This document shows, piece by piece, positions 18,034 through 41,984 of a DNA stretch of 64,000 bases. A model generated the notes under the pieces. It saw only the letters and a program-made list of their open reading frames with translations, did not search any database and was not told the origin of the DNA. The position numbers and the translations under genes were made by a program. Origin of the DNA: Microbulbifer bruguierae (lineage in GTDB: Bacteria; Pseudomonadota; Gammaproteobacteria; Pseudomonadales; Cellvibrionaceae). The number at the start of each line of letters is the position of its first letter. The stretch's first letter is position 1. The stretch spans positions 2,048,001 to 2,112,000 of the forward strand of contig NZ_CP118605.1 in NCBI RefSeq assembly GCF_029869925.1. Reading direction: 5' to 3'.

Positions 18034-20931
18034 ATGAAAAACTTCAAGCCCCAAAGCACGCTCCTGGCACTTGCCCTCTTTCCGACACTCTACGCCTGCG
18101 ATGGACAGCAGAATACCCAGACTACGAGCTGGCAAAAAACAGCCCACGGTGCGGTTGTCTCCCTGCAGAACAGCGATTTCAAGAAAGTCCGCGTGCAGGT
18201 AATCGATGAAGATATTATCCGTGTCACCGCCACGCCGCAGGAGGATTTCAGCAATCTTCCGGATACCCTGATGGTCACCGCGCAACCACAGGACGTCGCT
18301 TTTTCCATCACCGAAGAGAACGGCGAACTGATCGTCAAAACCGCGGAAATATCTGCAGAAATTTCTCTAGCCAGTGGCGTGGTGGAATTCAAAAACGCGG
18401 CGGGCCAGGTTTTGCTCAGCGAGGCGGACCGCAGCATGGCGCGCGTGATGGATGAACCGGGTCCCATCGATGCGGACTCCCACTCGTTCCGCCAGCGCTT
18501 TCAGCCGCAATCCGATGAAGCGTTTTATGGCCTCGGCCAGCAACAGGACGGGCGGGTCAACTACCGCGGTGAAAATATCGAGCTCACCACCTACAACATG
18601 GAAATCACCATTCCCTACCTGGTTTCCAGCCACAACTACGGCCTGTTGTGGAACAACGCCGGGGTCAGCCGCCTCGGCGACCCGCTGCCGCCGCAGCCGC
18701 TGCCGGAAGGCTTCAAACTGTACGATGCCAACGGGGAACCCGGCGGCCTCACCGCGCGCTATTACGACGGCGATGAACTGAAACTGGAGCGCTCCGAAGC
18801 AGACCTGAATTACCAGTTCCTGTCCCACGCCAGCGTGCGTGAAATCCCGCTGCCGGAAGAAGTCGCGAATGCCCAGGACCTGCGCATCCAGTGGATCGGC
18901 AGCATCGAACCCACAGTTTCCGGTGAACACGAATTCAAAATGTATTCCAGCGGCTATGCCAGCCTCTCCCTTGACGGCGAAGAGCTGCTGAACCGCTGGC
19001 GCATGAACTGGAACCCCTGGTACCACAATGCGGAAGTGGATCTGAAAGCCGGTGAAAAATACGCGCTGAGCCTCGACTGGCAACCCCAGGGCGGTTATAT
19101 GCGACTGTTGCAACACGGTCCGCTACCGGCGATTGAGCAACAGCAACTGTCCTTTACCGCGGACACCGGCAAGGCGGTGGATTACTACTTCGTCGCCGGC
19201 GACAACCAGGACGACGTGGTCGCCGGTTACCGCGAACTCACCGGCAAGGCCACCATGCTGCCCAAGTGGGCCTTCGGTTTCTGGCAGAGCCGCGAGCGCT
19301 ACAAGTCCCAGGACGAACTGCTGGGCGCGCTTGAGGAGTATCGCGAGCGCAAAATTCCCATCGACAATATCGTGCTGGACTGGTCCTACTGGCCGCAAGA
19401 CGCCTGGGGCAGCCACGACTTTGACAAAGCCCACTTCCCCGATGCCAAAGCCATGGTGGAGCGGGTACACGAACTGGATGCCAACATCATGATTTCGGTG
19501 TGGCCGAAGTTTTATCCCACCACCGACAACTACGCCGAGCTCAATGCCAAGGGCTGTATGTTCAACAAGAACATCGAAGAGAAGAATCTGGACTGGATCG
19601 GCGCCGGTTACCTGAATGCCTTCTACGATGCCTATAACCCCGAGTGCCGGGAAATTTACTGGAGCCAGATCCGCGACAAGCTCAACACCGTCGGCTTTGA
19701 TGCCTGGTGGCTGGACGCGGTGGAACCGGACATCCACTCCAACCTGAGTTTCAAACACCGCAAGGATCTGATTACTCCGAACGCCATGGGAACCGGTGCG
19801 GAAGTGTTCAACGCCTATGCCCTGCCCCACGCGGAAACCGTGTACCAGGGCGAGCGCAAAACCGATGGTGACAAGCGCGCATTTATCCTCACCCGTTCCG
19901 GTTTCGGTGGCATCCAGCGCACCGCGTCGGCGATCTGGAGTGGCGATGTGGTGTCCCGCTGGTCCAACCTGGAAGAGCAGATTGCCGCGGGTATTGGCGT
20001 GGGTATGGCGGGCATGCCTTACTGGACCTTCGATATCGGCGGTTTTACTCCCGAGGACCGCTACCGCTACAACGGCGATGTGGTGGTGGGTAACTACAAG
20101 GAAATGGCCCAAAGCGAACAGCAGGAGTGGCAGGAACTGAACCTGCGCTGGTTCCAGTTCGGCGCCTTCACGCCACTGTTCCGCGCCCACGGCCAGAACC
20201 CCTACCGCGAGATTTACAATCTGGCGGACGAGGGCAGCGACACCTACAACAGCATGGTGGACTACACCAAGCTGCGTTACCGATTAATGCCCTATATCTA
20301 CACTCTGGCCGGAGACGCCCACCACAAGGATGGCACCATGATGCGCGGCCTGGCGATGGATTTTGGCGCGGACCCGAAAGTACGCGATATCAATACCCAG
20401 TACATGTTCGGCCCCTCGCTCCTAGTGAATCCGATCACCGAGTTCGGCGCACGTTCAAGAGATGTCTACCTGCCCGCAGGTACCGACTGGTACGACTTTA
20501 ACAGCGGCGAGAAATACAGCGGCGGACAGACCATCGACGCAGCGGCACCCTATACGCAGATGCCATTGTTCGTAAAAGCCGGCAGCATCCTGCCCACCGG
20601 CCCGGAAATCCAGAGCACCGCGGAAAGCATCAACACCCCGCTGACCCTGAACGTATTTACCGGCGCCGACGGCCGTTTCGAAATCTACGAGGACGATGGC
20701 AAAAGCTACGGCTATGAAAAAGGCCAGTGGTCGCGAATTCCGGTCAGCTACAACGAAGCCAGCGGCGAACTCACCATCGGTGAACGCACTGGTAGTTTCG
20801 ATGGCATGGCCAAACAGCGGGCAATCAGTGTGCGCTGGATTGACCAGGGCGACAAACCTGCGGACCTGAACGGCACCGCGGATCTATCCCTGCAATACAG
20901 TGGTACCCCGATCACCCTGAAACGCGGCTGA
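18034..20931 (+). CDS. GH31 alpha-xylosidase with PA14 insert, lipoprotein
   Basis: 965 aa. The signal sequence ends in a lipobox (LYAC, lipidated Cys about residue 22), so it is probably a membrane-anchored lipoprotein. An N-terminal beta-sandwich is interrupted by a PA14 domain at about residues 234-365, then comes the GH31 barrel with nucleophile D561 (WWLDAVEPD) and acid/base D638 (SGDVVSRW), then C-terminal beta domains. The PA14 insert is diagnostic of the Cellvibrio xyloglucan alpha-xylosidase type, which removes the non-reducing-end xylose of xyloglucan oligosaccharides. It follows GH35 after about 210 bp filled with repeats. A GC hairpin lies between it and GH97. Confidence 0.94.
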   Translation: MKNFKPQSTLLALALFPTLYACDGQQNTQTTSWQKTAHGAVVSLQNSDFKKVRVQVIDEDIIRVTATPQEDFSNLPDTLMVTAQPQDVAFSITEENGELIVKTAEISAEISLASGVVEFKNAAGQVLLSEADRSMARVMDEPGPIDADSHSFRQRFQPQSDEAFYGLGQQQDGRVNYRGENIELTTYNMEITIPYLVSSHNYGLLWNNAGVSRLGDPLPPQPLPEGFKLYDANGEPGGLTARYYDGDELKLERSEADLNYQFLSHASVREIPLPEEVANAQDLRIQWIGSIEPTVSGEHEFKMYSSGYASLSLDGEELLNRWRMNWNPWYHNAEVDLKAGEKYALSLDWQPQGGYMRLLQHGPLPAIEQQQLSFTADTGKAVDYYFVAGDNQDDVVAGYRELTGKATMLPKWAFGFWQSRERYKSQDELLGALEEYRERKIPIDNIVLDWSYWPQDAWGSHDFDKAHFPDAKAMVERVHELDANIMISVWPKFYPTTDNYAELNAKGCMFNKNIEEKNLDWIGAGYLNAFYDAYNPECREIYWSQIRDKLNTVGFDAWWLDAVEPDIHSNLSFKHRKDLITPNAMGTGAEVFNAYALPHAETVYQGERKTDGDKRAFILTRSGFGGIQRTASAIWSGDVVSRWSNLEEQIAAGIGVGMAGMPYWTFDIGGFTPEDRYRYNGDVVVGNYKEMAQSEQQEWQELNLRWFQFGAFTPLFRAHGQNPYREIYNLADEGSDTYNSMVDYTKLRYRLMPYIYTLAGDAHHKDGTMMRGLAMDFGADPKVRDINTQYMFGPSLLVNPITEFGARSRDVYLPAGTDWYDFNSGEKYSGGQTIDAAAPYTQMPLFVKAGSILPTGPEIQSTAESINTPLTLNVFTGADGRFEIYEDDGKSYGYEKGQWSRIPVSYNEASGELTIGERTGSFDGMAKQRAISVRWIDQGDKPADLNGTADLSLQYSGTPITLKRG

Positions 20932-22998: not shown

Positions 22999-24546
22999 AT
23001 GCAGCAAGGAGCTAAAGACCCTAAAAGCCCGATCAAAGTCATCAATATTGTCGGCGGCGGTACTGCGGGCTGGATGGCGGCGGCCACACTGGCCCGCCAC
23101 TTTCGCGGTCACGACCTGTCGATCCGGCTGGTGGAATCCGAGCAGATCGGCACCATCGGTGTGGGCGAAGCCACGGTACCGAGCATTCTCAACCTGAACC
23201 GCTACCTCGGCATCCGTGAACGGGACTTTATCGCCGCTACCGGTGCCACCTTTAAACTCGGCATTGAATTTTCCGACTGGTACACCGCCGGGGAGAGCTT
23301 CTTCCATCCATTTGCAGACTTTGGCGCCCCCCTGGGCGGGATACCTTTTTATCCCTGTTGGCTGAAGCAGTACAAACTCGGTAACGCCGCGCCGCTTTCG
23401 GAGTACAGCCTCGCTACCGCACTTGCGAAAGGTGGACGCTTCGCACAGCCGGACCCGGATACCCAAAATCCTCTCGCACTCTACAACTACGCCTATCACT
23501 TCGACGCCAGCCGCTATGCCGCCTTGTTGCGACGCATAGCAGAGTCACACGGCGTGCGGCGCATCGAGGGGAAAATCGTTGAGGTCAGACTCGATAGCAG
23601 TAACGGCGATATCCGCAGCCTGCACCTGCAAAGCGGTGAGATCCTGCACGGAGATCTGTATATCGACTGTTCCGGTTTCCGCGGCCTGTTGATCGAGCAG
23701 GCGCTGGCTACCGGCTATGAAGATTGGCGTCACTGGTTACCGGTAGATACCGCTGTAGCAGTACAGAGCGAACGCGCTGGCCCTGCGCCGCCCTATACCC
23801 GCGCGACGGCGACCGCTGCCGGATGGCGCTGGCGCATTCCCCTGCAGCACCGCAATGGCAATGGCCATGTTTTTTCCAGTGCGCATATGACCACCGAACA
23901 GGCGAGTACTGAGCTTCTGAAAAATCTCGAAGGCAGTGCACTGGGCGAACAGAGGGTCATCCGGTTTGCCGCTGGCATGCGCAAAAAATTCTGGAACAGG
24001 AACTGCGTGGCCCTGGGGCTCGCATCCGGTTTTATCGAGCCACTGGAAAGTACCAGTATTTCCCTGATCCAGACAGGTGTCGAAAAAATTCTGAAATTTT
24101 TACCGGACCTGATACCAGAACAAAAAAATATCGACGAGGCGAACCGTCTGAACCGCCAGGAATACGAACGGGTGCGCGACTTCATCATCCTGCACTACAA
24201 ACTCAACGGCCGCGATGACACACAGTTCTGGCGCGATATGCGCGACATGGCAGTACCGGACACCTTGCAGCAGAAGATGGATGCGTTTACCGAGGATGGT
24301 CGCCTGCTCAGTTTCGAGCAGGAGTCCTTTCAGGAGGCGAGCTGGCTGGCCATTTACGACGGTTTTCAATTCCGTCCACGGAATTACCTGGCGGAGGTCG
24401 ACAAGCTGGACAACAAACAAGTAATTCGGGCGATGGAAAATATGCGCCATGCCATTGCCACAGCGGCAACCCACGCGCCGCCGCATCACACCTTCCTGCG
24501 ACAAGCATTTTTGCAACCGCAGGAAGCCTGCGCGGAAACGGAGTGA
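22999..24546 (+). CDS. FAD-dependent tryptophan-halogenase-family protein 1
   Basis: 515 aa, no signal peptide. The FAD fold begins IVGGGTAGWMAAA. All three hallmarks of flavin halogenases are present: catalytic Lys K86 (ATFKLGIEF), the WxWxIP motif at W276-W278 (GWRWRIPLQHR) and the active-site Glu E347 (GFIEPLEST). Such genes are common beside TonB receptors in polysaccharide loci of Xanthomonas, Caulobacter and Cellvibrio relatives, but their natural substrate is unknown; known members need a flavin reductase, and none is encoded nearby. It starts 3 bp after GH97. It is related to the products at 36252 and 37808. Confidence 0.9.
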   Translation: MQQGAKDPKSPIKVINIVGGGTAGWMAAATLARHFRGHDLSIRLVESEQIGTIGVGEATVPSILNLNRYLGIRERDFIAATGATFKLGIEFSDWYTAGESFFHPFADFGAPLGGIPFYPCWLKQYKLGNAAPLSEYSLATALAKGGRFAQPDPDTQNPLALYNYAYHFDASRYAALLRRIAESHGVRRIEGKIVEVRLDSSNGDIRSLHLQSGEILHGDLYIDCSGFRGLLIEQALATGYEDWRHWLPVDTAVAVQSERAGPAPPYTRATATAAGWRWRIPLQHRNGNGHVFSSAHMTTEQASTELLKNLEGSALGEQRVIRFAAGMRKKFWNRNCVALGLASGFIEPLESTSISLIQTGVEKILKFLPDLIPEQKNIDEANRLNRQEYERVRDFIILHYKLNGRDDTQFWRDMRDMAVPDTLQQKMDAFTEDGRLLSFEQESFQEASWLAIYDGFQFRPRNYLAEVDKLDNKQVIRAMENMRHAIATAATHAPPHHTFLRQAFLQPQEACAETE

Positions 24547-30419: not shown

Positions 30420-32174
30420 ATGCATTCGGTGAAAATCAAACAACAGATAAGTGCTCTGGGGATTGCCTTGGTGACCGCGATTTCACCCGCTGACGCCTCA
30501 GAAAAAATTGCCCGCTTTTCCTGGTTCGAATACAACGGCAATGACGAAGTATTCAACCTGCCGCTGAAAGAAAACGAGTATCGCAATCCGATCCTCGCCG
30601 GGTTTCATCCGGATCCGAGTATCGTGCGCGTCGACAAGGACTATTATCTGGTCAACTCCACCTTCGGTTTCTTTCCCGGCATTCCCGTTTTCCACAGCCG
30701 CGATCTGGTGAACTGGACCCAGATCGGCAATGCCCTGCACAGGCCCGGCCAGGTGAACTTCAACGGCCTGCCACTGACCAATGCCGGCGTCTATGCGCCG
30801 GCCATCGAATATCGCGATGGCACTTTTTATGTGATCAATACCTGCATCGGCTGCGGCGGCAACTTTGTGGTCACGGCGAAAAATCCCGCGGGGCCCTGGT
30901 CTGATCCCATCTGGCTGCCCGAACTCGACGGTATAGATCCGTCGATTTTTTTCGACGACAACGGCAAAACCTACATCGTGCACCACGCCGAACCGGATAA
31001 AAAACGCTACCCGGCACACACCGCTATCCGCGTGATGGAAGTGGATCCGGAAACGTTTCAAGCAAAATCAGACGATGTACTGCTGGTGGACGGCGGTGCA
31101 GTGCCCCAGTGGAATACCGACTATCTGGAAGGCCCGCACCTCTACAACGTCGACGGTACCTACTACCTCTCCGCCCCCGGTGGCGGTACCGGCTATTTTC
31201 ACCAGCAGCTGCTGTTCAGGGCGGACAACGTATTCGGCCCCTATACCGCCAACCCGAACAATCCGGTACTGACCCAATTCGGGCTGCCGGACGACCGCCC
31301 CAACCCGGTTACCGCCACCGGCCATGCGGATCTGTTTGAAGACAGCAACGGCGACTGGTGGGCGGTGTTTCTCGGTACCCGGGTTTACGATCTGGCCACC
31401 GCCCCGCAGGACCCCGGCAATTTTCACACTGGCCGCGAGACCTTCATGCTCCCGGTACAGTGGAAAGACGGTTGGCCAATCATTCTGGAAGCGGGCCGCG
31501 CTTTGCCTTACGCGGTGAACCGGCCACGCCTTCCAGAGGACCAGCCCGCGCCGCGGCACACTACCGGTAACTTTTCCGAGCGCGAAGTATTTGTCTCCGA
31601 TAAGCTCGCCCCCCACTGGCTGTTTATCCGTACCCCGGACAGTCCCTGGTGGGCAACCGGCGACGAAGGACTGTCTTTACAGGCCCGCCCGGTTGCCATC
31701 GGCGACCGCGACGGCCAGCCATCCTTTGTCGGCCGCCGCCTCGCCCATATGCGTGCGGAAATGACTACCGCGCTGAAATTCACACCACAAGCAACAGACG
31801 ACGAGGCCGGATTACTGGCACTGCAGAGCGATGACTTTTTCTACGCCTTGGGCCTCGGGCGTAACAGCGCCGGTAAGGCGGTACTGCGGGTACGCCGGAA
31901 AGCGGGGAACGGTGGCGAAATTCAGGGTCAGGTGATTGCCGAGACGCCGATACCACTGCTACAGGGGCAACCGGTTTACCTGCGTATGAAGATCGACAAA
32001 TCCGAACTGGATTTCTCCTACAGCCTGGATGCCGAACACTACACCCCCCTGGTGGAAAATAACGATGCCCGGGTGCTGACCACAGCGGCGGCCGGTGGCT
32101 TTGTTGGAGCAGTTGTCGGGATGTATGCCGAGTCCGGAGAAAAAATCCGGATACAGGAACGACAGCAAATGTAA
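30420..32174 (+). CDS. GH43 glycoside hydrolase, paralogue of the 104-1834 gene
   Basis: 584 aa with a signal peptide (about residues 1-27). GH43 catalytic acids D65 (HPDPS), D173 (GIDPS) and E237 (EGPHL) are in place, with a C-terminal beta-sandwich from about 370. It shares motif blocks and domain order with the protein at 104-1834. Within a xyloglucan locus the best guess is alpha-L-arabinofuranosidase acting on arabinosylated side chains, as for GH43 enzymes of Bacteroides xyloglucan loci; beta-xylosidase is the alternative. It starts 12 bp after GH9 with ribosome site CAGAGG. Its stop codon lies inside a LacI-type operator (32170-32183), marking the end of this transcription unit. Confidence 0.92.
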   Translation: MHSVKIKQQISALGIALVTAISPADASEKIARFSWFEYNGNDEVFNLPLKENEYRNPILAGFHPDPSIVRVDKDYYLVNSTFGFFPGIPVFHSRDLVNWTQIGNALHRPGQVNFNGLPLTNAGVYAPAIEYRDGTFYVINTCIGCGGNFVVTAKNPAGPWSDPIWLPELDGIDPSIFFDDNGKTYIVHHAEPDKKRYPAHTAIRVMEVDPETFQAKSDDVLLVDGGAVPQWNTDYLEGPHLYNVDGTYYLSAPGGGTGYFHQQLLFRADNVFGPYTANPNNPVLTQFGLPDDRPNPVTATGHADLFEDSNGDWWAVFLGTRVYDLATAPQDPGNFHTGRETFMLPVQWKDGWPIILEAGRALPYAVNRPRLPEDQPAPRHTTGNFSEREVFVSDKLAPHWLFIRTPDSPWWATGDEGLSLQARPVAIGDRDGQPSFVGRRLAHMRAEMTTALKFTPQATDDEAGLLALQSDDFFYALGLGRNSAGKAVLRVRRKAGNGGEIQGQVIAETPIPLLQGQPVYLRMKIDKSELDFSYSLDAEHYTPLVENNDARVLTTAAAGGFVGAVVGMYAESGEKIRIQERQQM

Positions 32175-32802: not shown

Positions 32803-35800
32803 ATGAAACGTATCCGTTTGCCCGGCACAAGGGCCGGACTTATTTCATTCGCCTCCCCACTACTGGTGTTGAGTAGCGTAATGGCGAGTGCACAGGAAAG
32901 TCAGTCGACAGAAAAACCGGAAGAGGAAAACGCAGCCATTGAGGAAGTGGTGGTTCAGGGCATGCGCATGTCCCTGGAAAACGCCCAGGACATCAAGCGC
33001 CACGCCCCGACGGTGGTGGACTCTATCACCGCCAAGGACCTGGGCTCCTTCCCGGATAAATCCGTGGCGGAAGCGCTGCAGCGGGTGGCCGGTATTACCG
33101 TGAACCGATTTGCCGCCTCTTCGGATACCGCACACTTCTCCGCGGAACCTTCTGGCGTGGTGGTGCGCGGACTGAACCAGGTGCGCAACGAATTGAACGG
33201 GCGCGACTCTTTCAGCGCCAACTCCTCGCGCGGTCTCAGTTGGGGCGATGTATCACCGGAACTGATGGGCGGCGTGGACACCTATAAAAACCAGATGGCG
33301 GAACTGGTCGAAGGTGGTATTGCCGGCACCGTGAATTTGCGCACCCGGGTCCCCTTCGACCAGGACGACGACCTGGTTGCGTTTACCGTAAGCAGCAACT
33401 ACGGCGACCTCTCCGGCGATGTGACTCCCGAGGCCTCGGGCCTGTACAGCACCCGCTGGCAGACCGGAGTTGGGGAATTTGGTGTTCTCGCCAATGTTGC
33501 CTATTCTGACGTCCACACCAATACCGAGGGCAACCAGCTGTTCCGCATGAACCGCTTCCGCGATGTCTACGAAGAGGACAGCCTCTACTACATCCCTGCC
33601 GGTATCAACATGCGGGAAACCAGTTACGACCGCGAACGTCAAGGCGGCGCACTGGCATTCCAGTTCCAGAATCTCGATGAGACCGTGGTGGTCACCACCC
33701 AGTACAACCGCTCCGAGTATGAAAATGCCATGGAGGAATATATCGTCCAGGCTTCACCGGCGGATTTGTCCTATTCCCAGAGTGTGCTGTTCGAAGTCGA
33801 CGCCGGCAATAGCGGTATACCGCGGCCTGCGCCGGGTACCGAAGCATTCACCTTCGATTCAAATGGTCTGTTCCAGCAGGGCACCATGGTTACCGGCCTC
33901 GGCTGGTGGGGCGGCAATGATGCCGAGGCCATGGGTTATGCCACCAACGCAGCCGGGCAACCATTGGTGAACCCCTGCTACGACTGGGCCGGCTGTACGC
34001 CCGCCGACCAGCGGGGCATCAACATGAATACCGGCACGCGCTACAGCATTAACAAGAACATGACCCAGGACTTTGCCACCAACGTCAAATGGGCCATCAC
34101 CGACCGCGTGCGCTCGCAATTCGACATACAGTACGTGGACTCCAAGGTAGAAAACTACGATATCGAAACCGGCTTTGCGTCTTACGCGGATCTCGCCCTG
34201 GACCTGACCGGCAAACGCCCGGCGATACAGCTGCTCGATCCCACCAACGTCAATCTTTCCGAGGGCAACTGGGCCAATCCCAACAACTACCGTATCCACT
34301 CCATCATGGACCATGTGGAAGACAGCGAGGGCGACCAGCTCGCGCTGCGCGGTGACTTTGAGTTTGATATCGACAACGGCTGGATGGAATCCATCAAAAC
34401 CGGCGTGCGCTGGGCGGAGCGCGACCAGCAGGTGCGCTGGAGTGGGTATAACTGGCAGAACGTTGCCAACGACTGGACCAACAACCAGTCGGCCTATTAC
34501 AACCTCGACCGGCACGAACCCGCCAATGGTGCCGGCGGTCAACCTGGTTTCACCGGCTATCCGCTGGACTTCTACGGCGTACGCTCTCTGGGCACGTCGA
34601 ATTATCACGATATCAATTTCAACCAGTTCGTTTTTGCCAATATGGATCTGATCTCCAATCGACAGGCCATGGCCAATGCGCTCGGTGCCGGCGCGCTCGG
34701 TCTGACCGGCGGCGTCGGCTGGGACCCGATCTGTTCCAATACCGGCGATCGCAGCGGCGAAGTCGAGGGAACCTGCTTTACCCCCTCGGAAATTGCTGAC
34801 GTCAACGAGGAAACCCAGGCCGCCTATATCCAGTTCAACTTTGGTGGCTCAGACGCCGAGCTGTTTGGCGTACCGGTCTCCGGTAACTTTGGTCTGCGCT
34901 ACGTGAAAACCATCAATAGTGCAGACGGTGGTACCGACTATGCGCGCCTGGGTGATGAATACTTTTTCACCCTCGATCCAGAAACCGGCGAGCGCATTTC
35001 CGACCCGACTCGCCAGAACCTGGGCTGCGCCCCGGTAACCGCACCTGAGGGACAGCCACAACCGCCAATTCCCTTCACGTTGGGTTGTTACCTGTCCATG
35101 GACGATGTCGCCTTCATGAATGGCGCCAGCCAGACCGGTAGCAGCAAGAAAACCCACCACAATCTGCTGCCGAGCTTCAATATCAAGTTCGACCTGACGG
35201 AAGAAGTCCTGCTGCGCTTCGCCGCCTCCAAAGCCATGGCGCGGCCGGATATCGGCAACCTGCGCTACTACACCGGCATCGGTGAAACCCTGCCGGATAC
35301 CGATAATCCCGGTGACCCTCTGTGGGTGAAAAATGCCGAAGGAGAAATTGTCGGTGCCAATGTGCGCTACACCAGCGGCGCGCAGAATCCGTATCTTTCC
35401 CCCATCGAGGCGACCCAGTTTGACCTGGCGCTGGAGTACTACTTTGCCGACGTGGGTTCCATGACCCTTACCCTGTTCCACAAACAGTTCGACAACTACA
35501 TCCAGATCGGCAATCAGAATGTCGAATTCACCAACAACGGGGTAACCCGCACGGTAGAAGTCAACCGACCACTGAACGGCGATGGCGCTGAGATCAAAGG
35601 CTTCGAATTTGCCTTCCAGCGTTTCTTCGACTTCCTGCCGGAACCGTTTAATGGTCTCGGCGTACAGGCCAACTATACCTTTATCGACAACCAGGGTATC
35701 ACCAATACCGGTGTGCAGGCGCAGGGTGCGGAAAGCACCACGGTTACCGCCCAGGCTCCGGATACCATCAGCGTCAACCGCCTGGAAGGGCTCAGTGACA

Positions 35801-36126
35801 ATGCGTACAACCTGGTGGGCATGTACGAATATGGCGACTGGCAGGCGCGTTTGGCTTACAGCTGGCGCGACGAGTATATGGTCACTGCCATCGATTGCTG
35901 TGTGGCCTACCCGGTATGGACGGAAGCCTTCGGATCACTGGACGGTTCCGTCGCGTACAGCCTTACCGACAACCTGGATATTGCCTTCCAGGCCAGCAAC
36001 CTCCTGAACGAGGAAACCGTGATGACCCAGCAGGTTTCCAATGTGGAGGATGGCGGTACCCGGATGCCGAACTCCTGGTTCATCAACGACCGCCGCTATA
36101 CGCTGGGACTGCGCTTCCAGTTCTGA
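32803..36126 (+). CDS. TonB-dependent receptor 2 (Caulobacter-type, TIGR01782-like)
   Basis: 1107 aa with a signal peptide (about residues 1-30, MASA-QES) and a TonB-box-like IEEVVVQGMRMS segment. The plug contains VAEALQRVAGITVNRF, VVRGLNQVRNELNGRD and GGIAGTVNLRTRVPF, and the barrel ends in LGLRFQF. It is homologous to receptor 1 but longer, with extra loop sequence rich in Gly/Asn around residues 350-420 and 590-640. Probable import of a related but distinct oligosaccharide. It has its own promoter region with two LacI-type operators. A terminator-like hairpin follows its stop, before the halogenase pair. Confidence 0.94.
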   Translation: MKRIRLPGTRAGLISFASPLLVLSSVMASAQESQSTEKPEEENAAIEEVVVQGMRMSLENAQDIKRHAPTVVDSITAKDLGSFPDKSVAEALQRVAGITVNRFAASSDTAHFSAEPSGVVVRGLNQVRNELNGRDSFSANSSRGLSWGDVSPELMGGVDTYKNQMAELVEGGIAGTVNLRTRVPFDQDDDLVAFTVSSNYGDLSGDVTPEASGLYSTRWQTGVGEFGVLANVAYSDVHTNTEGNQLFRMNRFRDVYEEDSLYYIPAGINMRETSYDRERQGGALAFQFQNLDETVVVTTQYNRSEYENAMEEYIVQASPADLSYSQSVLFEVDAGNSGIPRPAPGTEAFTFDSNGLFQQGTMVTGLGWWGGNDAEAMGYATNAAGQPLVNPCYDWAGCTPADQRGINMNTGTRYSINKNMTQDFATNVKWAITDRVRSQFDIQYVDSKVENYDIETGFASYADLALDLTGKRPAIQLLDPTNVNLSEGNWANPNNYRIHSIMDHVEDSEGDQLALRGDFEFDIDNGWMESIKTGVRWAERDQQVRWSGYNWQNVANDWTNNQSAYYNLDRHEPANGAGGQPGFTGYPLDFYGVRSLGTSNYHDINFNQFVFANMDLISNRQAMANALGAGALGLTGGVGWDPICSNTGDRSGEVEGTCFTPSEIADVNEETQAAYIQFNFGGSDAELFGVPVSGNFGLRYVKTINSADGGTDYARLGDEYFFTLDPETGERISDPTRQNLGCAPVTAPEGQPQPPIPFTLGCYLSMDDVAFMNGASQTGSSKKTHHNLLPSFNIKFDLTEEVLLRFAASKAMARPDIGNLRYYTGIGETLPDTDNPGDPLWVKNAEGEIVGANVRYTSGAQNPYLSPIEATQFDLALEYYFADVGSMTLTLFHKQFDNYIQIGNQNVEFTNNGVTRTVEVNRPLNGDGAEIKGFEFAFQRFFDFLPEPFNGLGVQANYTFIDNQGITNTGVQAQGAESTTVTAQAPDTISVNRLEGLSDNAYNLVGMYEYGDWQARLAYSWRDEYMVTAIDCCVAYPVWTEAFGSLDGSVAYSLTDNLDIAFQASNLLNEETVMTQQVSNVEDGGTRMPNSWFINDRRYTLGLRFQF

Positions 36127-36251: not shown

Positions 36252-37811
36252 ATGGCAGACAAAATAAAAATAGCCATTGTCGGCGGCGGTACCGCCGGCT
36301 GGATGACCGCCGCTGCACTGGCGGGCATCGCCACAGATAAAATCTGTGAACTGATCCTTGTGGAATCGGAAGCCATCGGTACCGTGGGTGTCGGTGAAGC
36401 CACGATTCCGGCCATCAAGGAATTCAACGATCGGCTCGGCATCCCGGAAACGGAAATGCTGCAACAGACCCGGGCGACCTTCAAACTCGGTATCGAGTTT
36501 CAGGGCTGGGGCAAACCAGGTACCTCCTACATTCATCCGTTCGGCACCTTCGGTCAGCCCATCGCCGGCACGGACTTCCATCAGCAGTGGCTGCGATTTT
36601 TTTCCGATTCTGCGTTGCGGGAAAATGCGGGGTTGTCGCAGCAATTACCCCCGCTGGAAGCGTACTCCCTGGCGGTGCAGATGTGCCGCGCGGGAAAATT
36701 TGACTATCCAAAGGCCAGTGCCGGATCTGCGCTTGATCCCATCGAATCCAGTTACGCCTACGCCTATCATTTCGACGCCGGGCTCTATGCGCGCTATCTG
36801 CGCGACTATGCCGAGCAGCGTGGCGTACGGCGTATCGAGGGGCGTATTCACAACGTCAGTCAAGATCCGCACAGCGGTGATATACAGACGCTGCACCTCG
36901 AGTCCGGCCAGCAGATCAGCGCCGATTATTTTATCGACTGCTCCGGCTTCCGCTCCCTGCTGCTTGGACAGACACTCGGCGTCGCCTATCAGAGCTGGAA
37001 GCACTGGCTGCCCTGCGACAGCGCCGTCGCCATGCCCAGCGCACGCGACGCAGACCTGCCGCCGGTGACCCGCTCCACCGCGCAGCCCGCGGGCTGGCAG
37101 TGGCGTATTCCGCTGCAACACCGCTGCGGCAACGGCTTTGTGTACCAGAGCAGCCTGATTGGCGACGACGAGGCGGCGGACTCCCTGGCTTCCAGCCTAA
37201 AGACACCGGCCATTGGCGACCCGCGCATTATCCGTTTCGAGGCGGGCAAGCGCGCCTGTTCCTGGCATAAAAACTGTATCGCCGTCGGGCTTGCTGCGGG
37301 TTTTCTGGAACCACTGGAATCCACCAGTATTTATTTAATTCAGGCAGCGATCGTGAATTTCCTGAAACTTTTGCCAGGAAAATCGCTACAGCCGCAACTG
37401 GCGCGTGAATTCAACCGCTTGCTGAATCTGGAATACGAGCGCGCGCGGGATTTTATTATTCTCCATTATCATTTAAACCCGCGTACAGACTCGGAACTGT
37501 GGCGCCATTGCCAGTCGATGTCGATACCCGATGAGCTGCGCCTGCGCATCGAAGCCTTCCGCAAGCGCGGCTTTATCGAACAGTACCGGCACGGTCTGTT
37601 TGCGCCACCGAGCTGGCTGAGTGTATTCATGGGCCAGGGCCTTAAACCCCGGCAGGTCGAACCACTCGCCAACCAGGTCGATCCGCACAAAGCCGCGCAG
37701 ACCCTGAGCTCGCTGGAGCAGACCATTCGCCGACAGATCGCGGCCATGCCATCAAGCGCAGAATTTGTGCAGCAATTGAATTCGATGCCGGCGGAGGAGA
37801 TGCACGCATGA
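36252..37811 (+). CDS. FAD-dependent tryptophan-halogenase-family protein 2
   Basis: 519 aa from ATG 36252 (MADKIKIAIVGGGTAGW); an upstream in-frame GTG at 36186 lies inside the terminator hairpin and is rejected. Intact hallmarks: GGGTAG FAD motif, catalytic K78 (ATFKLGIEF), W282/W284 (GWQWRIPLQHR) and E353 (GFLEPLEST). It closely resembles halogenase 1 at 22999-24546. Its last four bases overlap the start of the degenerate paralogue (ATGA), so translation is coupled. Substrate unknown; the constant pairing with TonB receptors suggests a role on something that enters with, or competes with, the glycan. Confidence 0.9.
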   Translation: MADKIKIAIVGGGTAGWMTAAALAGIATDKICELILVESEAIGTVGVGEATIPAIKEFNDRLGIPETEMLQQTRATFKLGIEFQGWGKPGTSYIHPFGTFGQPIAGTDFHQQWLRFFSDSALRENAGLSQQLPPLEAYSLAVQMCRAGKFDYPKASAGSALDPIESSYAYAYHFDAGLYARYLRDYAEQRGVRRIEGRIHNVSQDPHSGDIQTLHLESGQQISADYFIDCSGFRSLLLGQTLGVAYQSWKHWLPCDSAVAMPSARDADLPPVTRSTAQPAGWQWRIPLQHRCGNGFVYQSSLIGDDEAADSLASSLKTPAIGDPRIIRFEAGKRACSWHKNCIAVGLAAGFLEPLESTSIYLIQAAIVNFLKLLPGKSLQPQLAREFNRLLNLEYERARDFIILHYHLNPRTDSELWRHCQSMSIPDELRLRIEAFRKRGFIEQYRHGLFAPPSWLSVFMGQGLKPRQVEPLANQVDPHKAAQTLSSLEQTIRRQIAAMPSSAEFVQQLNSMPAEEMHA

Positions 37812-39352
37812 GCCAGTCCTCCCCTATCCGATCCGTTGCCATCATCGGCCGCGACAGCGATGCCTGGCTAACTGCGCTGCTATTGCGAAAAGCGCTGGGA
37901 AAACAGTACCTGGAAAACGGCGAGCAACCACTGACGATAACACTGGTGGAACTGCCCTCCCATACCCTGCCCCAGGACGTCATCACTACCCTGCCCACGC
38001 AACGATTGCTGCATCAATTACTGGGTTTGTCAGAAAGCAATGTTGTTGAAAGTAGCGGCGGAACCCCCTCTCTGGGCTACTTCTATGCCGGCTGGAGAGA
38101 TCACAATTCCGGCCGTTTCCAGCTGTACGACAATACCGGTGCCAGTATCGATCGCCTGCCCTTTTTTCACTACTGGAATCGCGCGCGCCAGCGCGGGCTC
38201 AATACCGATCTGGACGAGTTTTCGCTCGCCGCTGCCGCTGCGCGAAGGGGCAAGATGCTGCGACTGAACAACGATATCCACCACTTTGCCGGTGGCGCGT
38301 TCAGTGGCACCACTTACGCCTACAACCTGTCAGCACCGGCCTACGTAAAAGGAATCGCGCGGCTCGCACTGGATGCCGGCGTGACGCACCGGATCTCTGA
38401 GGTGAAGACCGCCAGTATCGGCGATGGCGGCATTCAATCCGTGCTACTCGACAACGGGGAATCGATACACGCCGACCTGTTTATCGATGCCAGCGGAACT
38501 GGCGAGCTGATCGACAGATTGAGCAAGGGCAGCCTGGACCAGGACAATTTCGAATCCTGGAATAACTGGTTTCCCTGTGACCGCGCACTGGTCGCCTCCA
38601 TGCCGCGCCTGCGCCCCCAACCGGCGCTCAACCAGATTGTCGCGCTTTCCTGTGGCTGGATGGGACTCTATCCGCTCGCTGCGCGCACCGGAGTACTGGT
38701 GCCATTCGACTCACAATCCGCGAGTTCCGAGCAGATATTGCAGACCGTTCAACGCATGACCGCCAGAAAATTAATCCAACCGCAGATACGCACACTCAAC
38801 ATCGGTGTGCGATCAAAGCCGTGGCGTGGCAATTGTGTCGCGGTGGGCACATCGGCAGCGAGTCTGGACCCGCTACAGGGATTGCAGATGCAGGTGCTGC
38901 ACACTTCGCTTTCCTATCTGCTCTCCCTGTTCCCGGCCCATGGCAATCAGGATTATGAAATCGAACGCGAACTCTACAACTCCCGGCTCTACAGCCATGT
39001 GGAGCGACTGCGGGATTTCCAGCTGGCGGGCTATCTGCTGAACCAGCGCCCCGAACCCTTCTGGCGCCACTGCGCCGGGGCACCAATTCCGCAACCCCTC
39101 GCCGACAAGATCGATCTGTTCAAAACCCGTGGAAATATTCCGCTGGAGGAACACGAACCTTTCGACGAACCCGCCTGGCAGGCACTGTTTGCCGGCTGTG
39201 GATTGATGCCCGAGAGCTACCATCCACTGGCCGACCTGGTGCCGGATACACAGCAGATCGAATTCTTCCAGGATATTTTGCGCTTCGTTGCCGCACAGGC
39301 GGAGCGGATGCCGGATCTGGAACGCACACAGAATGGCGCCGCTCAGGTGTGA
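37808..39352 (+). CDS. Degenerate halogenase-family protein (probable non-catalytic partner)
   Basis: 514 aa. It aligns end to end with the two intact halogenases (DLFIDASGTGELIDR, NWFPCDRALV, SLDPLQGLQMQVLHTS, DYEIERELYNSRLYSHVERLRDF), yet every hallmark is changed. The FAD glycine motif reads IIGRDSDAW, the catalytic Lys position is S88 (TPSLGYFY), WxWxIP is WMGLYP (W284, G286) and the Glu position is D354 (SLDPLQG). The reading frame is intact and overlaps the functional paralogue by 4 bp, arguing for a maintained structural or regulatory partner rather than a pseudogene. It could instead be a halogenase-fold protein of different activity. The esterase gene overlaps its 3' end. Confidence 0.82.
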   Translation: MSQSSPIRSVAIIGRDSDAWLTALLLRKALGKQYLENGEQPLTITLVELPSHTLPQDVITTLPTQRLLHQLLGLSESNVVESSGGTPSLGYFYAGWRDHNSGRFQLYDNTGASIDRLPFFHYWNRARQRGLNTDLDEFSLAAAAARRGKMLRLNNDIHHFAGGAFSGTTYAYNLSAPAYVKGIARLALDAGVTHRISEVKTASIGDGGIQSVLLDNGESIHADLFIDASGTGELIDRLSKGSLDQDNFESWNNWFPCDRALVASMPRLRPQPALNQIVALSCGWMGLYPLAARTGVLVPFDSQSASSEQILQTVQRMTARKLIQPQIRTLNIGVRSKPWRGNCVAVGTSAASLDPLQGLQMQVLHTSLSYLLSLFPAHGNQDYEIERELYNSRLYSHVERLRDFQLAGYLLNQRPEPFWRHCAGAPIPQPLADKIDLFKTRGNIPLEEHEPFDEPAWQALFAGCGLMPESYHPLADLVPDTQQIEFFQDILRFVAAQAERMPDLERTQNGAAQV

Positions 39353-41289
39353 TAACTCAAACTCACCGGAAAAAACCAACCGTGACAACAGCCCGCCCCT
39401 CCATCGCCGTTTCCGCATTGACAGCTTTTGTGCTGCTGATCCTCAGCTTCGGTGCAATCGCCGAGATCCAGCCGGCCAAAATTTTCTCCGACCACATGGT
39501 ACTGCAACGGAATCAGCCGGTTGCCATCTGGGGAACCGCCTATGCGGATACCGATATTCATCTGGCGCTGAACGACCACCGCTATACCGTACGCAGCGAC
39601 AGCGATGGCCAGTGGCGGATAACCATTCCCGCGCAAAAGGCCGGCGGCCCCTATACGCTCTCCCTGAGTGGCGACGGCGAGGCGGCGATTCGCGATGTCT
39701 ACTTCGGCGATGTGTGGCTCGCCGGCGGCCAGTCCAATATGGAGTGGAAACTGAGCTGGAAGATCAATGATTCCGACAAGATCATTGCTTCCGCCGATTA
39801 TCCTCTAATCCGGTTCTTCGATGTGCCCAGTGAAATCGCCGCGACACCGCAAGCGACGTTGAATGGCGGCGAATGGAAAAAAGCCACCCCGGAAAACGCC
39901 GCGGAATTTTCCGCGGTCGCCTACCTGTTCGCACAGAAAAATCATCTGGAGAAAGACGTTGCGGTCGGTATCATTGACAACAACTGGGGCGGCACACCGG
40001 CGGAAGCCTGGATGAGCAAAGAGGCACTGTTGCAGTTGCCCGCCTATCGCGAACGCACCGAGGCACTGTTTCAGCCGGGTACCGACTGGCCCGCGCGTTT
40101 TAACCGCAACCAGCGCAACGCCGAAGAAAAATACCAGCGGCTCACCAGCAAACAAGATGCGCTGAAGGCGGGCGCCTACCGTTTCGACTACTCCACCGCC
40201 AGCTGGAGCGAACAGACACTGCCTGCGGAATTCGAGCATCTGGCCTGGTTGCGCCATGAATTCGATCTCAATGAAATACCCAGCAAGGCCGTACTGGAGC
40301 TCGGCGACCTGCAGCAGGAGGCGTTCGTCTGGATCAATGAACATTTACTGGCGGAGGAAGATTCCCAGGCCCAGGGCGCCCGCTATGAAATTCCGGCTGA
40401 CCTGCTGAAAAAAGGCCGCAACCTGATCGCGCTGCGCGTCGGCAACAGCTGGCACAACAAACCCTATGTGGGCCGTCCGGATCAACTCTGGCTACAACTC
40501 GGCGACACCAGACTGGACCTGAGCAGCGGCTGGCAGTACAGCAACCAGGTGGAAGCGCCAATACCGGAACATATCCGCTACGAACACAAACCCACCTTCC
40601 TGTACAACAGCATGATCCACCCGATCCAGGGCTACGGTATTCGCGGAGCCATCTGGTACCAGGGTGAAAGCAATGTGGGCGAAGCCGCGCAGTACCACGA
40701 CCTGTTCAGTGCCCTGATTCAGGACTGGCGCAACCAGTGGCAACAGGAGTTGCCCTTCCTGTTCGTACAACTGGCCGCGTTTCTGCAACCGAAAAACCCG
40801 CAACCGGACAGCAACTGGGCACTGCTACGGGAGATGCAGAGCCGTACCCTGACGTTGCCCAAAACCGGCATGGCCACCGCCATCGATATCGGCGATATCT
40901 ACGACATTCACCCGCGCAACAAGCAGGATGTGGCGGCGCGTCTGTGGGGCGAGGCAAAACGCGTGAGCTACGGTGAAGACATTCTCAGCCGTGGCCCTAC
41001 CTACCAGTCACACCAGTTGAAAAACAACCGTGTAATTATCCGGTTTGCACATACCGGTGAGGGACTGCGACTCAAAGATGGTGAATCGGTAAAAGGATTT
41101 ATTCTTGCGGACAGCCAGGGCAACTACCGGCTCGCAAACGCGAAAATTGAGGGCAGCACCGTCGTGGTATGGCACGACGATATAGCAAAGCCCAGCGCAA
41201 TCAAATATGCCTGGGCGGATTATCCGGAAGTCAACCTGTACAACTCGGCCAACCTGCCGGCATTACCCTTTTCTCTGGAAAAATTATAA
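39349..41289 (+). CDS. Secreted SGNH acetylesterase (sialate O-acetylesterase-like, CE20-like)
   Basis: 646 aa. A signal sequence is at about residues 12-37; GTG 39349 overlaps the previous stop, and GTG 39382 is an equally plausible start giving a tighter signal peptide. SGNH hydrolase blocks: GGQSNMEW with nucleophile S129, WYQGESNVG, and the Asp-His pair D519/H521 (DIHPRNKQD). A jelly-roll-like insertion around residues 290-395 (PSKAVLELGDLQQEAFVWIN) splits the catalytic domain, as in sialate-esterase-like proteins and in CE20, the family founded on a Xanthomonas xyloglucan acetylesterase. Removal of O-acetyl groups from xyloglucan galactose is therefore the preferred role, by inference from the locus. 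Confidence 0.87.
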   Translation: MITQTHRKKPTVTTARPSIAVSALTAFVLLILSFGAIAEIQPAKIFSDHMVLQRNQPVAIWGTAYADTDIHLALNDHRYTVRSDSDGQWRITIPAQKAGGPYTLSLSGDGEAAIRDVYFGDVWLAGGQSNMEWKLSWKINDSDKIIASADYPLIRFFDVPSEIAATPQATLNGGEWKKATPENAAEFSAVAYLFAQKNHLEKDVAVGIIDNNWGGTPAEAWMSKEALLQLPAYRERTEALFQPGTDWPARFNRNQRNAEEKYQRLTSKQDALKAGAYRFDYSTASWSEQTLPAEFEHLAWLRHEFDLNEIPSKAVLELGDLQQEAFVWINEHLLAEEDSQAQGARYEIPADLLKKGRNLIALRVGNSWHNKPYVGRPDQLWLQLGDTRLDLSSGWQYSNQVEAPIPEHIRYEHKPTFLYNSMIHPIQGYGIRGAIWYQGESNVGEAAQYHDLFSALIQDWRNQWQQELPFLFVQLAAFLQPKNPQPDSNWALLREMQSRTLTLPKTGMATAIDIGDIYDIHPRNKQDVAARLWGEAKRVSYGEDILSRGPTYQSHQLKNNRVIIRFAHTGEGLRLKDGESVKGFILADSQGNYRLANAKIEGSTVVVWHDDIAKPSAIKYAWADYPEVNLYNSANLPALPFSLEKL

Positions 41290-41303: not shown

Positions 41304-41984
41304 ATGACGAGCCAACTCTACAACACCTCTGAACGTCACCCACGCAGCAAGCAGCTTATGCTGATCGCAGCCCTACTGCTTACTCCCGCTCTCACGCTAG
41401 CCGCGGAAACGCCCAACCCCAACTACGTCTATTTCAGCGCGGGCGACACACCGGAAAAATGGGCCTGGGTATTGAGCGACCCGGACAACTGGTGGCAGCC
41501 CCTGGCCGGCAATGACGGCCAGTCTGCACAGAAAAAGATCCGCATAGTACCCACCAGCTTCCAGAGCGAAAACGACGCGGTAAATATCCAGTGGAGTAAA
41601 AATTCTTCCTGGGGCAGCGCAGCCATCAGCGGACGCGAGATAGACCTGTCCGGATATGAAAATGCCGCGGAGCTGTCCGTGGCACTGAAAGTCAAAAAGC
41701 GCAGCAAAAGTGAAGTCAAGCTCGCCATGAACTGTGGCGAGAATTGCGGCGGCGAGGTTCAGATAGGCCACATCCTCAACAAGGCCCCACTCGACCAGTG
41801 GTTCCTGTTGCCGGTGCCGCTGAACTGCCTGAGCCAGAGCGGCGCAGATCTTTCAAAAATAATCTCGCCGTTCTCCATCGGCACTACAGGCAGTCTGGAG
41901 CTGGAAATCGCCGAAATCCAGGTCATGCCGCTGGCGGATGGGGACAAGGGTTGCGCTCAAGATGGCCAACCCAGCGCTCCCTGA
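41304..41984 (+). CDS. Secreted ExoP_C-like galactose-binding-fold protein
   Basis: 226 aa from ATG 41304, 14 bp after the esterase. The signal peptide (about residues 16-33, LTLAAETP) is followed by a single beta-rich domain with SAAISGREIDLSGYENAAEL, LAMNCGENCGG and ISPFSIGTTGSLELEIAEIQV. This pattern resembles the C-terminal ExoP_C domain of GH3 exo-glucanases and the middle domain of the GH3 fusion at 60359-63547 (LDLSNYVEQGVL, LELQCGHECERR). No catalytic motif is visible. Likely a free-standing carbohydrate-binding or scaffold module, last gene of the + strand locus. Function unproven. Confidence 0.72.
   Translation: MTSQLYNTSERHPRSKQLMLIAALLLTPALTLAAETPNPNYVYFSAGDTPEKWAWVLSDPDNWWQPLAGNDGQSAQKKIRIVPTSFQSENDAVNIQWSKNSSWGSAAISGREIDLSGYENAAELSVALKVKKRSKSEVKLAMNCGENCGGEVQIGHILNKAPLDQWFLLPVPLNCLSQSGADLSKIISPFSIGTTGSLELEIAEIQVMPLADGDKGCAQDGQPSAP

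Follow-up and report, generated by a model that had tools for sequence, protein, structure and literature searches.

Many bacteria, closely related and distant alike, carry a gene for an intact flavin-dependent halogenase followed by one for a catalytically dead halogenase-fold protein. The recurrence of this pair suggests that the halogenase has a non-catalytic partner of its own. The best explanation, and one that we consider rather probable, is that the dead protein is a pseudoenzyme of ancient origin that serves as one subunit of a receptor-linked, heteromeric halogenase. The pair was studied in 64,000 nucleotides of Microbulbifer bruguierae DNA (the window), where the intact gene is HAL and the dead gene DEG. 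Across loci the intact upstream gene is called A, the dead gene D, and a further intact halogenase gene that often follows D is called B.

An intact halogenase gene overlaps a catalytically dead one

All features described lie on the forward strand. Upstream of HAL (36252..37811) stands a TonB-dependent receptor gene of the TIGR01782 (TonB-Xanth-Caul) family (32803..36126), which scores 615.9 bits against a cut-off of 310. HAL encodes a 519-residue halogenase of the BrvH/Xcc4156 type in a frame open from the ATG at 36252 to the stop at 37811, and DEG (37808..39352; 514 residues) is open from the ATG at 37808 to the stop at 39352. The HAL stop and the DEG start share the ATGA at 37808..37811. 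This 4-bp overlap and the intact 514-codon DEG frame had been claimed in an earlier reading of the DNA made from its letters (the sequence-only reading), and an ORF check confirmed both. The DEG stop is in turn overlapped by 4 bp by the GTG start of a SASA-type carbohydrate esterase gene (39349..41289).

HAL matches PF04820 over nearly the full length of the profile (567.8 bits, positions 1-457 of 458). In the alignment it has the GxGxxG motif as GGGTAGW (residues 11-17; 36282..36302), the catalytic Lys78 (36483..36485), the WxWxIP motif in GWQWRIP (281-287), and the Glu-Ser-Thr site in EPLEST, so that K78, W282/W284 and GGGTAG are as first described. For the catalytic Glu the earlier reading was right about its loss from DEG but not about the positions E353 and D354. 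Glu346 of PrnA, the Glu immediately before Ser-Thr, aligns with E356 of HAL (37317..37319) and with Q357 of DEG (38876..38878); E353/D354 is an adjacent position three residues earlier. The catalytic Lys and Glu are kept in 140/140 A and B genes. The K83A variant of BrvH, at the position of HAL Lys78, is reported to be inactive (PMC5945002). Judged by its residues, HAL is probably a live halogenase.

DEG aligns with HAL from end to end at 27% identity and matches PF04820 with 278.3 bits (profile positions 2-457). K78 is replaced by S88 (38069..38071), GWQWRIP by GWMGLYP (283-289), and GGGTAGW by GRDSDAW (14-20; 37847..37867). The GVGEAT FAD loop is lost, and EPLEST has become DPLQGL, with Gln357-Gly-Leu in place of the catalytic Glu and the Ser-Thr halide site. 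The length-wise alignment, S88, WMGLYP and the broken FAD loop had all been noted correctly. An AlphaFold monomer of DEG has a pLDDT of 92.1 and TM-scores of 0.89/0.93 to BrvH, and D is thus predicted to keep the full halogenase fold.

These changes are not due to chance, for they reappear among the close relatives, 16 with the window counted (Lys absent in 16/16, GWxGx[YF]P in 16/16, GRDxDxW in 15/16). GxGxxG and WxWxIP are lost in 48/48 window-type D proteins, 98% of which keep D16; outside the window type the D motifs vary widely. For a survey of 79 dead genes, a gene was called intact if it kept Lys78 and Glu356 and had Ser or Thr at 358, and otherwise dead. Lys is absent from 76 of the 79 (two of them have an alignment gap at that position) and Glu is lost in 67; 12 have lost Lys, three Glu and 64 both, and none keeps both residues. 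At 38 positions a residue kept in at least 95% of A and B is lost in more than 80% of D, and 26 of these positions fall in the FAD motif (12-18), the FAD loop (39-49), Lys78/Ile81, WxWxIP to Gly295, and 347-360.

The gene pair is conserved beside a TonB-dependent receptor gene

Receptor, A and D stand in the same order in 16/16 close loci. The 79 dead genes come from non-duplicate Alpha- and Gammaproteobacteria loci fetched by similarity to DEG; the duplicate loci L040, L044, L045, L047, L051, L053 and L054 and the D-less loci L055-L057 were left out of the counts. Within this set an intact A lies directly upstream of 77/79 D genes, an intact B directly downstream of 63/79, and in 72/79 cases a TonB-dependent receptor gene precedes the first gene by at most 600 bp. 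In locus L065 a sulfotransferase gene, not A, precedes D, and B follows. Gene overlaps in the survey were taken from the longest ORF start, and those above 4 bp are therefore upper bounds. The sequence-only reading had held that a second gene rarely conserved, or found far from any intact halogenase, would speak against a partnership; the gene proved to be conserved, and no D gene among the 79 lacks an adjoining intact halogenase.

The wider fetch (best 80 of 231 by D similarity) has D in an open frame in 68/79 loci and lacks it in 11, nine of which hold ordinary halogenases only. The other two, L121 and L126, account for the two A-clade rows seemingly without D: in L121 D is cut by the contig end, and in L126 it is split in frame. 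None of the 79 loci is named as Xanthomonadales. An order-wide search with a strict cut-off and three candidates scored per genome found a match in at least 2 of 390, a lower bound, and a further search with four candidates scored each found matches in 11/369 genomes, with scores mostly in the range of ordinary halogenases. A first scan of genome contigs with a single protein as query gave no match.

A census of 12 genomes used PF04820 rather than D as the query and is unbiased by D similarity. It found 19 dead genes, with A directly upstream in 19/19 and B also present in 15/19. About 205 PF04820 matches reached at least 365 bits; 85 intact-type genes, three of them below 365 bits, were read residue by residue after a non-random choice by cluster and class, and the remainder were mostly classed by score alone. 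L165:4811-6415 and L189:2030-3547, which keep Lys and Glu and have Gln or Pro at 358, were counted as intact. True A genes score at least 35 bits higher with the A than with the B profile (median +168); L118:4411 and L106:8431 have slight A-side scores (+32 and +34) and no D.

The tie to the esterase, part of the original claim, was not upheld. An esterase follows DEG or its counterpart in 2/16 close loci (the window and L042), and it was rejected as a core partner and regarded as a local neighbour. A third, intact halogenase gene (B) occupies the slot in 12/16 close loci, and the native unit thus looks like receptor-A-D-B, of which the window has a reduced version.

Ten neighbour representatives, scanned one each, comprised GH3, GH31, GH97, GH9, LacI, a GMC oxidoreductase, a histidine kinase, DUF6445, a sulfotransferase and one without a match; the neighbour cluster counts are rough and include antisense ORFs.

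D forms a single clade and diverges together with A

In a tree of 64 hand-chosen rows, rooted with intact VGEG-class halogenases as the outgroup, D is one clade with support of 100/99, and the A clade has 94/96, just under the star mark used in that tree. A quick tree of 153 rows places D on one side of a branch with support of 97; long D branches are a risk for this tree, partly met by the 64-row tree. Many independent deaths of D were rejected on the basis of the single clade. The lower-scoring VGEG-motif class was considered as a source of additional dead genes and also rejected, since 26/26 read keep Lys and Glu.

The dN/dS of D is 0.07-0.33 in 24 pairs (25 of 39 pairs listed); some sequences occur in more than one pair, and the pairs are not independent. 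In the pairs tested, D shows purifying selection and evolves faster than A in 24/24. The window's DEG, whose nearest relative is 53% identical, lies outside these pairs.

The distances of D and A correlate in the window-type set (r=0.86, n=42), where the partial correlation of D with A given B is 0.72 versus 0.36 for D with B given A (n=32). For all triads r is 0.82 (n=69), with partial correlations of 0.64 (D-A) versus 0.42 (D-B) (n=57). The B-A (0.76) and B-D (0.78) distances are likewise correlated, and co-inherited genes can show correlated distances even without contact between their products. The partnership that the sequence-only reading proposed is strongly supported on its genetic side, by gene order, co-occurrence, the single dead clade, selection and co-divergence.

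A putative pseudoenzyme subunit and alternative roles for D

Beyond the gene order, residue losses, origin, selection and predicted fold, we infer that A and D bind and that D activates A or holds its substrate. On this reading D has a single origin in an intact BrvH-like halogenase; it shed its flavin motifs, catalytic Lys and halide site, kept the fold and was then retained beside A. The overlapping genes would allow A and D to be made together, presumably by translational coupling, and D would replace one protomer of a halogenase dimer to give an A-D heteromer in the cytoplasm. Trp halogenases share one form of homodimer in their crystals, which would provide a ready interface (PMC7336383). 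B, where present, may join A-D or act as a second catalytic unit. A would make hypohalous acid, and D, freed from catalysis, would hold or position a bulky substrate, possibly from the sugar-uptake pathway of the receptor, or switch A on in the manner of a prozyme. Besides L065, the two slightly A-side halogenases that lack D, and the B-A and B-D correlations, there are further counterpoints: Xcc4156 and Thal seem to be monomers in solution, at least in part (PMC7336383), and BrvH shows weak activity with no D present (PMC5945002). The pace of D relative to A and its motif variation also exceed the needs of a strict interface role.

The likeliest alternative is that D is a separate enzyme which has come to catalyse some step other than halogenation in the pathway that A serves, adjacent to A through a need for both steps and not through binding. 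We regard this as improbable. Ten residues are D's own and differ from A and B (D16, D57, H69, F138, A228, E386, Q405, L411, N412 and L491), and only D16 and D57 lie in former flavin motifs. The others may mark a new site, and this alternative gains weight because most of them lie outside the former flavin and halide motifs; purifying selection on D fits it as well. However, in the D proteins of other lineages A228 (94%) and E386 (58%) recur but few of the remaining residues do, so that no one new active site common to all is evident, and a Pfam and NCBIfam scan of DEG gave nothing beyond halogenase and flavin-monooxygenase matches. Still less probable is that D serves the receptor precursor, or some other secreted protein, as a chaperone or targeting factor, with a peptide held in the halogenase substrate groove of D and modified by A and B. 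The receptor gene adjoining in 72/79 cases would suit such a role, as would weak family matches to QhpG, LodB and GoxB and a match of the D profile to 7ctq, 'Peptidyl tryptophan dihydroxylase' (E=1.5e-4). These enzymes act on polypeptides. The site of BrvH is open and exposed to solvent and its activity on indole is low, so its natural substrate may be larger (PMC5945002). Yet in the window-type set D distances track A far more than the receptor (partial r of 0.83 for D-A given the receptor versus 0.16 for D-receptor given A), with a smaller gap for all triads (0.66 versus 0.37). The Trp residues conserved in linked receptors are not specific to them: at W551, W558 and W1021, 15 of the 29 other receptors have Trp as well. 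A related arrangement, which we rate just as unlikely, is a three-part A-D-B heteromer that modifies a polypeptide before export, likeliest the co-encoded receptor or its partner, with D holding the peptide; if true, this would be a system that modifies nutrient receptors by halogen- or oxygen-based chemistry.

A role for D as an inhibitor, or as the sensor that the sequence-only reading had considered, which would bind flavin, halide or an aromatic ligand to raise or lower the activity of A, is very unlikely. Dead paralogues can regulate live ones, as in prozyme examples, but D has lost, among other parts, its motifs for flavin and halide, and the idea found no support. Hardly any credence attaches to a decaying duplicate without function. 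Its catalytic residues are gone and it evolves faster than A, but from Microbulbifer to Sphingomonas the D frames are open, most of them about 485-520 codons long; dN/dS is well below 1, one clade has been kept in place, and 16 residues are invariant across 42 D sequences. Pseudogene status was rejected on this selection and conservation.

Comparison with known systems

If A enzymes need the dead partner proposed here, assays of one protein by itself would overlook what they really do; the present data give a candidate partner, its residue signature and a wide range of organisms. Literature searches with partial coverage and mostly without full texts, among them searches on halogenases together with TonB-dependent proteins, found no such pair described, nor any non-catalytic subunit dedicated to a halogenase.

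The closest solved relatives of HAL are BrvH from Brevundimonas BAL3 (460.3 bits), Xcc4156 from Xanthomonas campestris (427.8 bits) and 9luq from Pseudoalteromonas L11 (468.5 bits), which are also the closest folds to D. According to the reports on them, BrvH and Xcc4156 have halogenase motifs and an open active site (PMC5945002, PMC7336383). BrvH is the best-studied near relative; its indole activity when tested alone is weak, and its gene adjoins a second halogenase gene of 42.7% identity (PMC5945002). The A/B profile scores are 621.6/591.1 bits for BrvH, 606.5/636.8 for Xcc4156 and 635.7/660.3 for 9luq; set against the median gap of true A genes, these near-equal values mean that none is a clear A or B member. 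The portions of the literature examined mention no dead partner for any of the three.

PltD of pyoluteorin biosynthesis is halogenase-like, lacks the FAD motif and is encoded with active halogenases; it belongs to another halogenase branch and an antibiotic cluster. In a review table it is entered as 'Not clear if FHal' (PMC6864650). QhpG, LodB and GoxB are distant flavin-enzyme relatives that match HAL weakly, well short of the curated cut-offs; QhpG, also a weak DEG match, scores 29.4 and 28 against a curated cut-off of 240 bits, and D is without flavin motifs. In the prozymes of trypanosome AdoMetDC and deoxyhypusine synthase, a dead paralogue and a live one form a heteromer (PMC5201418, PMC3663545). 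Those enzymes are unrelated to halogenases. The likeness lies in what D appears to be: a dead paralogue, co-inherited with an enzyme that its residues indicate to be live.

The halogenase pair and its neighbours

The genome is a single contig of 4.48 Mb, with the window at positions 2,048,001-2,112,000. HAL, the intact flavin-dependent halogenase (36252-37811, 519 aa), and DEG, the second halogenase-fold gene (37808-39352, 514 aa), share the overlap sequence ATGA. A TonB-dependent receptor (TIGR01782, 32803-36126) lies 5' of HAL, and DEG shares its last 4 bp with an SASA esterase gene (39349-41289). Surrounding sugar-utilisation genes include a GH43 (30420-32174) and a GH31 (18034-20931). The protein encoded at 41304-41984 consists almost wholly of an ExoP C-terminal galactose-binding domain (PF18559); in locus L116 this domain forms the tail of a GH3 enzyme. 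Another intact halogenase, without an adjoining dead partner, is found at 22999-24546.

Catalytic residues are lost in DEG

In the alignment, HAL has all of GGGTAGW, K78, WQWRIP and EPLEST, the counterparts in DEG being GRDSDAW, S88, WMGLYP and DPLQGL; the GVGEAT loop is absent from DEG. Frames and alignment thus bear out the sequence-only reading as to K78 and GGGTAG in HAL, S88 and WMGLYP in DEG, and the 4-bp overlap. Its claim that DEG has lost the catalytic glutamate also holds, but not at E353/D354, which is another position: because the catalytic Glu346 of PrnA aligns with the glutamate preceding Ser-Thr, the true site is E356 in HAL and Q357 in DEG. According to PMC5945002, the K83A exchange in BrvH abolished activity.

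The dead gene travels with an intact halogenase

With DEG as query in 144 genomes, scoring at most 10 candidates per genome, 16 members were found in 15 genomes (at least 302.8 bits, 36-100% identity); below them came ordinary halogenases, from 255.8 bits downward and at most 34% identical. All 16 loci keep the order receptor, HAL orthologue, DEG orthologue, with HAL orthologues 48-68% identical, the window itself excepted, and in 12 a third, intact halogenase follows. The lysine is absent and GWxGx[YF]P present in every DEG orthologue, and GRDxDxW in 15 of the 16.

A profile search of named genomes gave, from the best 80 of 231 matches, 79 loci in Alpha- and Gammaproteobacteria, 68 of them with an open-frame dead gene. 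Hosts among these best matches include Caulobacter, Brevundimonas, Asticcacaulis, Phenylobacterium, Sphingomonas, Sphingobium, Aquisalinus, Parvularcula, Maricaulis, Niveispirillum, Azospirillum, Cellvibrio, Gilvimarinus, Paraglaciecola, Steroidobacter and Arenicella, among others. Together with ten earlier loci and the window, and with duplicates removed, 79 dead genes (D) were compared, 48 of the window type and 31 of other types. In 77 an intact halogenase (A) lies immediately 5' of D, and 21 of these A-D pairs have an overlap of exactly 4 bp. D lies immediately 5' of a second intact halogenase (B) in 63; none of the 79 lacks both neighbours. The two without A are L065 and the second D copy in L050; the latter stands where the compared sequence ends, and the fuller stretch (L159) does contain its A. 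In 72 of 79, the module's first gene has a receptor no more than 600 bp upstream of it, on the same strand in 52 and divergent in 20.

In L065 (1-1116, a Phenylobacterium MAG), a sulfotransferase occupies the expected A slot upstream of D, with B following. The D between A and B in Sphingomonas rhizophila (L126, 11350-12800) is broken into two frames, by either strain decay or sequencing error. Four halogenase-family genes in a row, with an extra intact one after B, stand near a receptor in L099, L105, L109, L114, L115, L123, L124, L125, L132 and L136. The DUF6445 protein of L108 (4409-5164) belongs to a sequence cluster found near halogenase modules in roughly 15 loci.

A census of 12 whole genomes with PF04820 as query is free of the bias of choosing loci by similarity to D. 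About 205 matches reached at least 365 bits, and reading of residues identified 19 dead genes; A lies directly upstream on the same strand in 19 of 19, and B is present in 15. The 19 take in L160/L161, where A and D adjoin across the two ends of a contig taken as circular, and L157, where A itself is split in frame. Loss of Lys78 or Glu356 was seen in none of the 85 intact-type genes that were read directly. The split A of L157 (532-2084, a Cellvibrio-group genome) belongs to that genome's third A-D-B set, in which D and B are open. In L171, L176, L180, L181, L183, L192 and other loci, a halogenase of a second class, with a VGEG motif (EAT or EAS), forms a tandem pair with an ordinary halogenase, and each of the two has Lys and Glu.

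Origin, selection and predicted structure

A tree for which intact VGEG-class halogenases served as the outgroup puts D in a single clade (bootstrap 100, SH-aLRT 99) and A in a separate one (94/96). The deepest D of this tree, L114 from Steroidobacter, retains the lysine and has lost the glutamate, as stepwise loss would give. Of 25 printed pairs, none of which includes the window's own D, 24 yielded a dN/dS, which was 0.07-0.33 for D and 0.05-0.30 for A, lower for A in each of these pairs. D and A distances correlate at 0.86 for the window type (n=42), with partial correlations of 0.72 for D-A given B and 0.36 for D-B given A (n=32); the corresponding values over all sets are 0.82 (n=69), 0.64 and 0.42 (n=57).

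DEG and HAL were predicted with pLDDT 92.1 and 91.7 and pTM 0.92 and 0.90, respectively, and the best structural match of predicted DEG is BrvH (TM 0.89 by query and 0.93 by target, 2.1 A). Since 26 of the 38 positions conserved in A and B and lost in D lie at the flavin motifs, the lysine, WxWxIP and halide sites, and the predicted fold is kept, the models indicate that the loss in D is mainly of catalysis rather than fold. D-specific residues elsewhere (E386, Q405, L411, N412, L491) would leave room for a new role.

A putative pseudoenzyme subunit

The best reading is that D is a pseudoenzyme subunit partnering A, although we infer the pairing, its effect and the substrate. Read by eye, neither HAL nor DEG has an evident N-terminal signal peptide, so their action is probably cytoplasmic. 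Profile scores revealed no clear D, A or B member among solved structures. No receptor-linked halogenase pair appeared in the available text of literature, largely from outside subscription journals, that matches tryptophan or flavin-dependent halogenase and TonB-dependent terms; the wider halogenase literature was considered in the available parts of PMC5945002, PMC7336383, PMC8269204 and PMC6864650. D may bind A through the halogenase dimer surface and would then either hold a large substrate or activate A. Crystals of tryptophan halogenases display the same homodimer, according to PMC7336383.
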